This document shows positions 54,265 through 58,037 of a DNA stretch of 64,000 bases, piece after piece (within the stretch, counting starts at the first letter, position 1; every line of letters starts with the position of its first letter). Location: contig NZ_VFPP01000001.1 in assembly GCF_006716745.1 (NCBI RefSeq), forward strand, positions 6,707,386-6,771,385, given 5' to 3'. The position numbers were made by a program, and so were the translations under genes. Source of the stretch: Saccharothrix saharensis (GTDB lineage: Bacteria; Actinomycetota; Actinomycetes; Mycobacteriales; Pseudonocardiaceae). Under the pieces are notes generated by a model that did no database searches, had not been told where the DNA came from, and saw only the letters and a list, made by a program, of their open reading frames with translations.

Positions 54265-54357
54265 TCACGGGTCTCCGGTCCCACCCAGCCGCCGGACGTC
54301 GCCCACCGGGTGAGGCGCTGGTGCCGGCAGCGTCGGGTGTCGGCACCGGCGCCGTGC

Positions 54358-54548
54358 TCACCAGCCGCGCTCGCGCCACTCGGACAGGTGTGGACGTTCA
54401 CTCCCCAGAGTGGTGTCGTCCCCGTGACCCGGGTACACCCGGGTGTCGTCCGGCAGTTCGGCGAAGATCCGCGCCTCCACGTCGTCGATCAAGGAACTGA
54501 ACGTGTCGGGCGACGTGGTCCCGCCCACCCCTCCCGGGAACAGCGGGA
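54358..54548 (-). pseudogene. Second, diverged 3' end of the MBL hydrolase gene
   Basis: The minus strand encodes the last ~61 codons of an MBL-fold hydrolase, from LFPGGVGGTTSPDTFSSLID to HLSEWRERGW and a stop. Compared with the intact gene at 57232-57909, 44 of the 61 residues agree by eye, so it is a homologous but not recent copy. The rest of the gene is missing. It marks one boundary of the inserted segment ending at 57235. Confidence 0.75.
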
Positions 54549-54678: not shown

Positions 54679-55944
54679 GTGAGTGCTCTCGTACAGCGCA
54701 ACGCAGCGGCAAGGGTGACCGAGCTACTAGCTTCGTTCCGCGTGGTCCTCCTCGGCGGCGCGCGGCAGACCGGGAAGACGACGCTGGCGCGCGAGTTGCT
54801 CGACCTGCCTGGCCACGCGTGGTTCAGCTTCGACGACGAGGCCGTGCTCGCCCGTGCGGAGGACGATCCGGTCGGTTTCGTGGACGCCTTGCCGCGACCG
54901 GCGGCGGTTGACGAGTTCCAGCGTGCCGGCCGCGGTTTCCTGCTCGCGGTGAAGCAGGCGGCCGACCGCGACCGCGCGCGAGGTCAACTGCTGTTGACCG
55001 GGTCGACCAACTACCTGGCCGACAAGGGCCTCTCGGAGACCTTGGCAGGCCGCGCCGGCAGGCTGCTGCTCTGGCCGTTGTCGATGGGGGAGCGGCTGGG
55101 AGTGCGGGAGACCTTCCTGGACCTGCTGTTCGAGTCGACCCGGTGGCCGGGTCGGTTCGAGCCGTTGCCGCGTGCGGAGTTGATCAGCACGTTGTTGGAG
55201 GGCGGGTACCCCGAGATCGTCACCGAAGGGCTTGCCGGACGTCAGCGCCGGAACTGGTTCGAGGCGTACGTGCACGACGTCGTGTCGAGAGAGGCGCTTC
55301 GCCCGATCGCCGAGGTCCGGTTGGAGGCCGAGCTGCGGAAGCTGCTGCGTCTACTGGCCGCTCGCACCGGTCAGGAGCTGGTTGTCGCCGGAGTTGCCGG
55401 CGACGCCGAGGTCGGCCGTGAGACCGCGTCGAACTACGTAACCCTGCTGGAGGCTCTCCACCTGGTGACCTTGCTGCCCGCGTGGTCAACCAACATCACG
55501 AACAGGGCGAAGCGTCGCCCGAAGGTCGTTGTCGTGGACACGGGTCTCGCGGCGGATCTCTGCGGTCTCGGCGAGCAGGCGTTCTCACTGACCGCCAATG
55601 GGACTGCGGCAGGTGCGCTGTTCGAGACGTTCGTGATCACCGAGGTCTTCAAGCAGGCCACGTGGAGCGAGCGGAGCGTGGACCTGTCGTACTTCCGTGA
55701 CCGTGACGGGGCCGAGGTGGACCTCATCGTGGAGGACCGCAGGTCTGGTGAGCTGGCTGGCTTGGAAATCAAGCTGACCAGCACGCCGACTGCTCGGCAT
55801 GCCAAGCACCTGGTGATGTTGCGGGACAAGTTGGGGAGCCGGTTCACGACAGGTCTGGTAATCCACGCCGGATCGCAAGTGCTGCCGCTGGGCGACCGGA
55901 TCTGGGCCGTTCCGGTCTCTGCCCTGTGGCGGTCGGACGTCTGA
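54679..55944 (+). CDS. AAA ATPase with DUF4143 domain
   Basis: A 421-residue ATPase of the type found scattered in genomes with DUF4143. Walker A is LLGGARQTGKTTLA; Walker B is in LPRPAAVDEFQRA; QLLLTGSTNYLAD follows as the sensor region. From residue ~200 the DUF4143 domain runs with SREALRPIAEVRLEAELRKLLRLLA, NYVTLLEALHLV and the C-terminal DLSYFRDRDGAEVDLIVED, which resembles a PD-(D/E)XK nuclease-like core. Its role is unknown, and it can travel with mobile and defence genes. Codon use is less GC3-biased than its neighbours. Confidence 0.9.
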   Translation: MSALVQRNAAARVTELLASFRVVLLGGARQTGKTTLARELLDLPGHAWFSFDDEAVLARAEDDPVGFVDALPRPAAVDEFQRAGRGFLLAVKQAADRDRARGQLLLTGSTNYLADKGLSETLAGRAGRLLLWPLSMGERLGVRETFLDLLFESTRWPGRFEPLPRAELISTLLEGGYPEIVTEGLAGRQRRNWFEAYVHDVVSREALRPIAEVRLEAELRKLLRLLAARTGQELVVAGVAGDAEVGRETASNYVTLLEALHLVTLLPAWSTNITNRAKRRPKVVVVDTGLAADLCGLGEQAFSLTANGTAAGALFETFVITEVFKQATWSERSVDLSYFRDRDGAEVDLIVEDRRSGELAGLEIKLTSTPTARHAKHLVMLRDKLGSRFTTGLVIHAGSQVLPLGDRIWAVPVSALWRSDV

Positions 55945-56043: not shown

Positions 56044-57235
56044 TCAGATGGGCATATTGAGTCGTATCATGCGCAAGAGGTTGCGGAGTATGTCGACAGT
56101 GTTCGACGGGATATCTTCCGGATTGAAGTGCATAATGTCGTTGCGGATGTCCCGGATTATTTCCAGGCGTTTGCAGAAGAGGGTCCGATCCAGCTTGGTG
56201 TTCAACCGGGTCCATGCATCCGGGTTCTGCAGGGTGCGTTCGTAATCGCCCATTGTCAATTGGTCGAACGACTTGATATCGCGAGATCCCGAAGGGTCGC
56301 ACAAGGTCACGACATCCGAAAGAGGGACATGACTGCTCACCACGTGGCGCAGTAGTCGGTCCAGTTCTCCGATCAGGAAGAAGGGTGTTGCCATGTCGCC
56401 GTAGGCGTGCGCAAGGTCGGCCGCCGTCACGATGCCGCTGACTTCGTTCAACTCGTTGCGAACGAAGACGAATCCTGCGCTTTGCAGAACACCCAGAACG
56501 TCCACGAGTTCCTGGTTGTAGGAGATCTCCGGGGCGTCGATGATGCAATCTCGCAGTGTTGCGCTCGGATTGATGTGCCGTGCGACGGCAATCGACTTCC
56601 AGGTGACTGCCCCGGACAGGTTGCGCTTGTTGGGAGACATGACGGCCAACTGGGAGAAGTCGTCGATCTGCATCAGCGTGATCGCCTGCTCGATGGTGCT
56701 CTCCCGCGTCACGGCGATGACCCCGCCAAGCGCGGACGGCAGGTTGCCGACCTTGAGTCAATGTCCGTAGCCCTTGACTCGTGAGGTCCTTCTCGATACG
56801 TCGGGTGATGCGGGTTCCGCGGCTCCGCGCGTTCCAGTGCCTGAGCAGTTCGCGGACCGTGACCGAGACCTCCTCGCCTTCTCCCAGCTGTTCTCTGACT
56901 TCGCTGAGGTACTGGTGTGGCGTGTCTGGGTGGGCGGTGCCCGTCGTGGTGTCACGCAGTTCGTTGCGCAGAGACGCCAAGGTCCGGTTTGCGTCGGTGC
57001 GCCACACGATCCAACCATTGATCTGTGTTCCGGTGACTGCTCTCGCGGCGTCCGACGGGGTGTCGTACTCGGCGCCACCCGTCAGGACGATGCGCCCTTC
57101 TGGCGAGACCGTGGCGACGTGCTCTTCGCCTGCTCTCGGTCGGGCGAACCGCAACCGGTCACCCGCGCGGATCAGTTCGGCACCGAGGAGATCGCGGACG
57201 CTCTCGCGGCGGTGTTCCGGAATCTGTGAGCTCAC
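56044..57235 (-). pseudogene. RAMA-CBS-HEPN-like protein gene, split by a frameshift
   Basis: GTG 57235 opens a RAMA-like domain (modified-DNA reader of restriction systems): LLGAELIRAGDRLRFARPRA, TVSPEGRIVLTGGAEYDTPS, INGWIVWRTDANRTLASLRN. Near 56750 the frame breaks, and the next frame gives two CBS repeats (VGNLPSALGG, IEQAITLMQIDDFSQLAVMS, VLQSAGFVFVRNELNEVSGI) and a C-terminal helical part with LEIIRDIRNDIMHFNPED, where R-N-D-I-M-H fits the HEPN R-x4-H motif. The linker expected between RAMA and CBS seems deleted, which explains the shift. GTG 56712 could start the second half separately. The RAMA start overlaps the MBL stop (GTGA). Codons are less GC3-rich. Confidence 0.7.
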
Positions 57236-57909
57236 CAACCGCGTCCCCTCCACTCGTCAAGCTTGGGACGCTCCGCTCCGAGCGTGGAGTCATCCCCGTG
57301 ACCGGGGTAGAACCAGGTGTCGTCCGGCAGCACGTCGAAGATCCGCGACTTCACGTCGTTGAACAGGGACGTGAAGTCCTCCGGCGACGTAGTCCGTCCC
57401 ACCCCACCGGGGAACAGCGAGTCCCCGGTGAACAGGTGGGGGTGGCCGGCCGGGTCGCGGTACAGCAGGGCGATCGAGCCGGGGGTGTGGCCGCGCAGGT
57501 GGATCACCGTCAGGGGGACTTCGCCGACGTGCACCGTGTCACCGTGCCCGACCAGGACGTCCGGCGGGATCGGCAGGACCTCGGCGTCCGCGGCGTGCGC
57601 GATGGTGTTCGAGCCGTTCGCGCCCGCGACCGCGCCGAGAGCCCCCCAGTGGTCCTGGTGGCGGTGGGTGGTCACCACGGTCTTCAGCCTCGGCCGGTCC
57701 ACCGAGTGGCCGACCACGTCCGACAGCCGTTCGGGGTCGGCCGCCGCGTCGATCAGCAGACCCTCGTTCGTCGCACGGCAGACCAGCAGGTACGCGTTGT
57801 TGTCCATCGGTCCCACCGAGACCTTCGTGATGGTCAGCGCGTCGAGGGTGCGCCGTGCCGCAGGGCCGCCCGGCGATACATGACCCGTGTAGTCCTCTAG
57901 TACGTCCAC
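57232..57909 (-). CDS. MBL-fold hydrolase (glyoxalase II-like)
   Basis: A ~225-residue metallo-beta-lactamase-fold hydrolase. The metal-binding motif is VVTTHRHQDHWGALG (H-x-H-x-D-H), with the further ligands in VIHLRGHTPGS, HLFTGDSLFPGG (Asp) and FYPGHGDDSTLG (His). It resembles Rv1637c of M. tuberculosis, which also lies just before uvrA. GTG 57909 (VDVLEDYTGHV) is preferred over GTG 57936 because a promoter-like TACGGT lies between them. The stop overlaps the start of the RAMA gene. The same 3' end, diverged, reappears at 54358. Confidence 0.88.
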   Translation of the reverse strand: MDVLEDYTGHVSPGGPAARRTLDALTITKVSVGPMDNNAYLLVCRATNEGLLIDAAADPERLSDVVGHSVDRPRLKTVVTTHRHQDHWGALGAVAGANGSNTIAHAADAEVLPIPPDVLVGHGDTVHVGEVPLTVIHLRGHTPGSIALLYRDPAGHPHLFTGDSLFPGGVGRTTSPEDFTSLFNDVKSRIFDVLPDDTWFYPGHGDDSTLGAERPKLDEWRGRGW

Positions 57910-58037
57910 AATGGCCGACCGTATCCGACCGGACACCCTTCAAGTCGCCCGCAGGTCGACCCCCTAGGGTTGGCTACCGGCCCGTAACGCCTCACCGCCG
58001 CTCGTCCGATGTCACCTGATTAGGGTTCTTCCACCTC

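Follow-up and report, generated by a model that had tools for sequence, protein, structure and literature searches.

A RAMA-bearing gene of the DS-11 anti-phage kind, almost certainly broken by a 164-bp deletion in Saccharothrix saharensis

We analyzed a 64,000-nucleotide stretch of the Saccharothrix saharensis genome (contig NZ_VFPP01000001.1, positions 6,707,386 to 6,771,385; hereafter the window), the genome being a single contig of 8,924,967 bases, and focused on a gene read from the minus strand between positions 57235 and 56044. This gene almost certainly belongs to a family whose members carry a RAMA domain, a winged helix, two CBS repeats and a HEPN-like end on one polypeptide, that is, to a RAMA-fused form of the anti-phage protein DS-11, and it is broken in the window. 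The account developed below, in which a RAMA-fused DS-11 anti-phage protein was recently inactivated by a 164-base-pair (bp) deletion and its intact relatives would work in the order that we propose, is one that we favor on balance. The gene contains the following features:

56948-57229, minus strand: RAMA domain (PF18755), residues 9-102 of the frame 56778-57253, E 2.6e-17
56760-56920, minus strand: remnant of a winged helix, matching residues ~105-158 of the intact sister protein P0001 (start approximate)
56759-56760, no strand: deletion junction, with 164 bp missing relative to the intact copy L003 (alignment and structure model)
56758-56760, minus strand: TGA stop codon that the junction forms in the CBS frame (reading frames)
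56047-56757, minus strand: open frame with the CBS pair and the HEPN half; stop codon at 56044-56046, possible restart at GTG 56712
56656-56658, minus strand: Phe codon where DS-11 has Tyr157, a predicted adenine contact (alignment)
56047-56427, minus strand: HEPN-like helical end
56128-56145, minus strand: R-x4-H motif RNDIMH, read from the translation

A first-pass annotation of this DNA had described a minus-strand RAMA domain followed, in another frame, by paired CBS repeats and a HEPN-like end, and this order was borne out. One frame (57235-56760) encodes the RAMA domain and half of a winged helix, a domain lying between RAMA and CBS that the earlier description did not have, and the other (56757-56047) encodes the CBS pair and the HEPN-like end. 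In profile searches, the RAMA match scored 63.1 bits, above the gathering score of 35.2, and the second-half frame matched PF00571 (E 3.7e-7). The gene has the CBS pair of DS-11 and, in RNDIMH, the R-x4-H motif that is generally catalytic in HEPN domains. The HEPN_Swt1 profile (PF18731) gave no match at E <= 1 in the window. The same profile matched only two of 56 relatives at E <= 0.01 (L027 gave E 0.09); these 56 proteins were hand-picked for an alignment from the best 120 of 441 relatives found with P0001, taking only those listed with RAMA, so that the presence of RAMA in all 56 is partly by choice. The profile scores and the intact relatives ruled out a reading of the two frames as chance or noise.

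Comparison with the closest intact copy, from Umezawaea beigongshangensis (L003), revealed how the gene was broken. The two copies are 82% identical in the first half and 87% in the second, and their alignment shows a single clean 164-bp block that is absent from the window. This block corresponds to residues 159-212 of the 450-residue P0001 plus one base on each side. In the structure model of P0001 (mean predicted local distance difference test score 88, predicted template modelling score 0.57), the lost region takes in the last winged-helix strand (the wing) and a disordered linker. A loss of 164 bp, a length not divisible by three, shifts the frame, and the stop codon arises at the junction itself; the RAMA frame continues without a stop as far as 55844, out of frame through the entire CBS-HEPN part. 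The proposal that a single gene had been broken by deletion of its linker was upheld: intact relatives read in a single frame and keep a linker. Programmed frameshifting was considered and rejected, since positions 56720-56800, inspected by eye, contain neither a homopolymer of four or more bases nor a classic slippery heptamer, and the 164-bp loss accounts for the shift.

Of the 40 residues invariant across the 56 intact relatives, 39 are retained in the window and the 40th lies within the deletion. For the first half, the ratio of nonsynonymous to synonymous substitution rates (dN/dS) was 0.175 between the window and Umezawaea and 0.184 between the window and Amycolatopsis circi, compared with 0.197 between the two intact copies; for the second half, the corresponding values were 0.128, 0.131 and 0.135 (rows for Amycolatopsis anabasis were left out of the second-half comparison, the split anchor not having been found). 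Unique amino-acid changes likewise showed no excess in the window, at 6 against 7 and 8 against 5 in the comparison with Umezawaea and 6 against 4 and 5 against 10 in that with A. circi. Because the invariant residues are kept and dN/dS resembles that of intact relatives, the loss is recent in the window lineage, as judged from sequence comparison. A search of the genome with the DS-11 model found no second copy.

The same conservation could mean that the break is real yet harmless, with the halves made separately from GTG 57235 and GTG 56712 and acting together, as the first-pass annotation had allowed. Nearly all invariant residues are indeed kept in both halves, without excess amino-acid change, but a recent break explains this equally well. 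Moreover, a product started at GTG 56712 would begin 15 residues into the CBS part, the first half lacks half of its winged helix, wing included, and would run on into the long out-of-frame tail to 55844, and no relative among the RAMA loci examined has a two-gene arrangement. We therefore consider separate, cooperating halves very unlikely. Still less credible is an artefact of sequencing or assembly in a strain that really has an intact gene, because sequencing errors do not usually take the form of a clean 164-bp loss, here within unique sequence of a genome assembled as one contig.

We identified the family by comparison with the NCBIfam model of DS-11 (NF053863, DS11_antiphage). The second half of the window gene matched model positions 74-305 with 233.3 bits (234.4 in the genome search), below the curated cut-off of 260 bits; the model positions before ~63-74 are deleted or out of frame in this copy. 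Intact RAMA relatives exceeded the cut-off (L003, 266.8; P0002, 279.3; P0020, 283.3; L034, 277.9; L055, 283.2) and matched the model over its full length, from residue ~127-147 on, that is, after the RAMA domain. Because intact RAMA relatives match the whole DS-11 model after RAMA, we describe the protein as RAMA plus DS-11. All 56 chosen relatives matched the model at E <= 1e-10, the threshold asked of this set. In the same 56 proteins, the HEPN residues R418 and H423 (P0001 numbering) and the RAMA residues S60, W74 and W77 are invariant. P0001 position 247, which corresponds to DS-11 Tyr157, is Tyr in 29, Phe in 26 and His in one, and the window has Phe. A fold search with the whole P0001 model returned CBS proteins and was uninformative on RAMA, the winged helix and HEPN.

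DS-11 was introduced as a one-protein CBS plus HEPN defence system in the DefensePredictor report (Science 2026; PMC13092281), excerpts of which state that E. coli DS-11 defends against phage, that Y157A in the CBS part or substitutions of the HEPN catalytic residues abolish defence, and that the ligand is an adenine derivative that 'remains to be discovered'. E. coli KE47 scored 404.9 bits against the model and has Tyr157, counted from its ATG, in the first CBS motif. DS-11 and the RAMA relatives share the order winged helix, CBS pair, HEPN, but only in the latter does a RAMA domain precede them. The term 'RAMA' is absent from the main text of PMC13092281, and literature searches, whose scope took in few subscription papers, found no published name for the RAMA form. 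The RAMA-bearing variant is thus apparently widespread and unnamed, its DS-11 effector part being already known, and in the intact relatives that part is probably an RNase effector of the anti-phage kind. Excerpts of Anantharaman et al. 2013 (PMC3710099) describe HEPN domains joined to CBS with a proposed response to nucleotide ligands, as here; the examples there have CBS with or without HD, however, and RAMA is absent from that main text.

The joining of these domains on one polypeptide had been called unusual at first pass, a view that the relatives contradict. Precomputed domains place RAMA in 117 of the best 120 of the 441 relatives of P0001, a count biased toward RAMA by a query that itself carries the domain; P0012-P0014, outside the 56-row alignment, have CBS without RAMA. 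Where names are given, the relatives are actinobacterial and annotated as 'CBS domain-containing' or 'restriction system modified-DNA reader domain-containing protein'. In a family survey of 200 genomes, 31 matched the CBS-HEPN half (rows left out: G017 and a second G197 row, both lower matches with no locus, and L019, L025 and L031), and in 14 of these 31, the window included, the RAMA half stands beside it. Twelve of the other 13 RAMA loci are single open frames, and that of Streptoalloteichus hindustanus (L010) is in several pieces. Together with four loci of a class survey and L053, L054 and L055, this gave 21 RAMA loci for examination, of which three are broken: the window copy, the S. 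hindustanus locus (L010/L039/L056) and L152/L162. The two other broken genes have several frames or an inner stop.

We rejected a wide spread of DS-11 through the phylum as read from model matches, because the model matched 333 of 396 genomes but also 13 of 14 control genomes, none of the latter over the cut-off, so that these matches are mostly CBS background. Scores above 200 bits occurred in only three of the 396 genomes, the window genome among them, and a stricter search across 394 genomes of the class gave 12. No match was found among 50,697 phage records. A plasmid search matched eight records, none of which covered 80% of the query. Separately, an unannotated DS-11 gene is present in NZ_CP141089.1, an E. 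coli record of 4.94 Mb that is labelled as a plasmid but, given this size, is probably a chromosome.

DS-11 proteins of other lineages stand with modules of restriction systems. One lineage (L017 and kin) has PF28530 as its N-terminal domain, and among 65 PF28530 proteins, 49 carry CBS, ten Mrr_cat (PF04471), three an AAA domain with PF14338 and three neither. A GmrSD_N (PF03235) gene lies directly upstream on the same strand in nine of 14 DS-11-size loci without a fused reader, all nine actinobacterial (L048, L049, L050, L023, L024 and L155-L158); the call was made by profile for L050 (E 2.6e-26) and by tblastn for the others. At L050 (7414-10196), the GmrSD_N gene and the DS-11-size gene that follows overlap by four bases. 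No GmrSD_N gene is upstream at L111, L151/L163 or three proteobacterial loci of the 14. These arrangements recall the GmrSD and Mrr type IV systems, in that GmrSD_N adjoins DS-11 in one lineage and PF28530 is common to DS-11 and Mrr_cat proteins, whereas here the modules accompany a HEPN protein; joint action of GmrSD_N with DS-11 is putative.

A further arrangement occurs within the RAMA lineage. At 11 of the 21 RAMA loci, the RAMA-CBS-HEPN gene is preceded by two genes in tandem, one encoding a ParA-like ATPase (AAA_31, E 3.4e-35) and a second gene (for example L034:7148-10202). The second gene has ~220-250 codons and a sub-cut-off Rho_N match, with no Pfam family over the cut-off; it was found in 14 of the 200 family-survey genomes, ten of which are exactly the operon bearers. 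The other ten RAMA loci, including the window sub-lineage (in the window genome the second gene alone was searched), lack the pair, which refutes a universal three-gene operon. In a quick tree of 63 rows, the 35 RAMA forms fell on one side of a branch with support 99 and the 17 PF28530 forms were grouped with support 98; the window lay in a seven-member clade with Umezawaea, A. circi and Kutzneria. The rows of this tree were hand-chosen, 24 of 60 inner branches had support below 80, and two changes are required for the DS-11-size rows. We rejected a repeated exchange of sensor modules, because RAMA and PF28530 each arose once in this tree, among the rows that it includes; hence we speak of lineages.

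From these observations we propose a working order for the intact relatives. RAMA and the winged helix would touch DNA and signal a base mark, and the CBS pair would bind an adenine nucleotide or derivative; the state of a HEPN dimer would depend on both inputs, and HEPN, once released, would cut RNA and halt phage growth. The first-pass annotation had likewise supposed an effector that links recognition of marks on foreign DNA to RNA cleavage. We infer the same, that RAMA senses modified DNA and that this sensing switches the RNase; the neighbours of the family and the alternative fusions point that way. The pairing of a conserved effector with modules from the restriction of modified DNA suggests that the signal includes base marks on foreign DNA, and we put the chances that modified DNA is the trigger at about even. 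Two points temper it: E. coli DS-11 works without RAMA, and the reading of modified DNA by RAMA is, in the excerpted literature, a proposal that was not confirmed for MPND, with mark preference unproven.

Excerpts of PMC11037411 and PMC12839542 report RAMA-Mrr-NTPase, GIY-YIG-RAMA and DUF3780-RAMA fusions. In such type IV and BREX-related proteins, as here, the proposed modified-DNA reader is fused to a defence effector, but their effectors are DNA nucleases or other parts, compared with a CBS-gated HEPN in our family. In the intact sister, Pfam found RAMA, a sub-cut-off DUF4357 and CBS only, and thus not the pairing of modified-DNA reader and DNA nuclease that defines type IV. RAMA-DS-11 may still sense like a type IV restriction enzyme. 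More tentatively, with the odds somewhat against it, actinobacterial DS-11 as a whole could be an RNA-cutting counterpart of type IV restriction. It would comprise three deep lineages, each with a different sensor module (RAMA fused, PF28530 fused or a GmrSD_N partner gene), in which modified phage DNA together with a CBS-bound nucleotide releases the HEPN RNase; one RAMA sub-lineage would add the ParA-like ATPase and the second protein as a three-gene system. If true, this would name the missing class of DS-11 trigger. The same effector, fused to or beside three restriction-type modules, makes marks on phage DNA testable as part of the DS-11 signal, and the RAMA family supplies a named set of intact natural proteins for such tests. 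The window copy itself is of lesser weight, as a recently lost defence gene that shows such genes get lost.

Two other ways for the protein to work appear improbable, and about equally so. The logic could be reversed, with RAMA reading the host's own mark and restraining the RNase until the mark is lost or absent, as on incoming or hypermodified phage DNA. RAMA also occurs with methyltransferases, and the domain of this family weakly matches a type II methyltransferase model and CcrM; however, the neighbours of the loci examined, which were only partly identified, included no recognisable methyltransferase gene, and PF28530 with Mrr_cat and GmrSD_N belong to modified-DNA restriction and so point to a foreign mark. 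Alternatively, RAMA and the winged helix could merely tether the protein to DNA or regulate its own gene, and an adenine derivative at the CBS pair would be the entire trigger. This would fit E. coli DS-11, which by the excerpted report defends without RAMA and needs the CBS tyrosine (PMC13092281), and the P0001 model, which sets CBS beside HEPN and RAMA behind the disordered linker. A mere tether is harder to reconcile with the quick tree, in which RAMA (35 rows) and PF28530 (17 rows) were each acquired at the root of one lineage and retained, and with the invariance of S60, W74 and W77 in all 56 relatives.

The broken gene occupies a site marked by a hydrolase gene and a partial copy of its end. 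The features of this site are as follows:

57232-57936, minus strand: metallo-beta-lactamase-fold hydrolase gene (PF00753, E 8.6e-14), directly upstream, its end overlapping the possible start of the RAMA frame
54679-55944, plus strand: AAA_14 and DUF4143 ATPase gene, between the hydrolase gene and its fragment and convergent with the broken gene
54356-54545, minus strand: partial repeat of the 3' end of the hydrolase gene, identical in 150 of 192 columns (78%)
L104:1235-1702 and L107:1231-1698: PIN-like open reading frames beside the hydrolase gene and its fragment (sub-cut-off Pfam matches)

The intact hydrolase gene and the duplicate 3' end enclose both the broken gene and the ATPase gene, whose AAA_14-DUF4143 product matches the PADLOC candidate PDC-S01. 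The same order, with the hydrolase fragment, occurs in Umezawaea, Kutzneria and A. circi (L032, L033 and L053). The ATPase is 97% identical in Umezawaea, compared with 82% for RAMA, 87% for CBS, 91% for uvrA and 55-91% for neighbours, and in L099 and L101 the hydrolase gene is followed by ATPase relatives of 39-40% identity. Within the stretches fetched, neither RAMA nor CBS-HEPN was found at the hydrolase site in the other 24 genomes of the genus. A hydrolase fragment lies near the intact gene in five of 25 genus genomes, and PIN-like open reading frames occupy the site in three, two of which were scanned and gave sub-cut-off PF01850 matches (E 0.003 and 0.006), the third being recognised by sequence likeness. 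The site is apparently an insertion hotspot, where small cargo would arrive carrying a hydrolase 3' end of its own.
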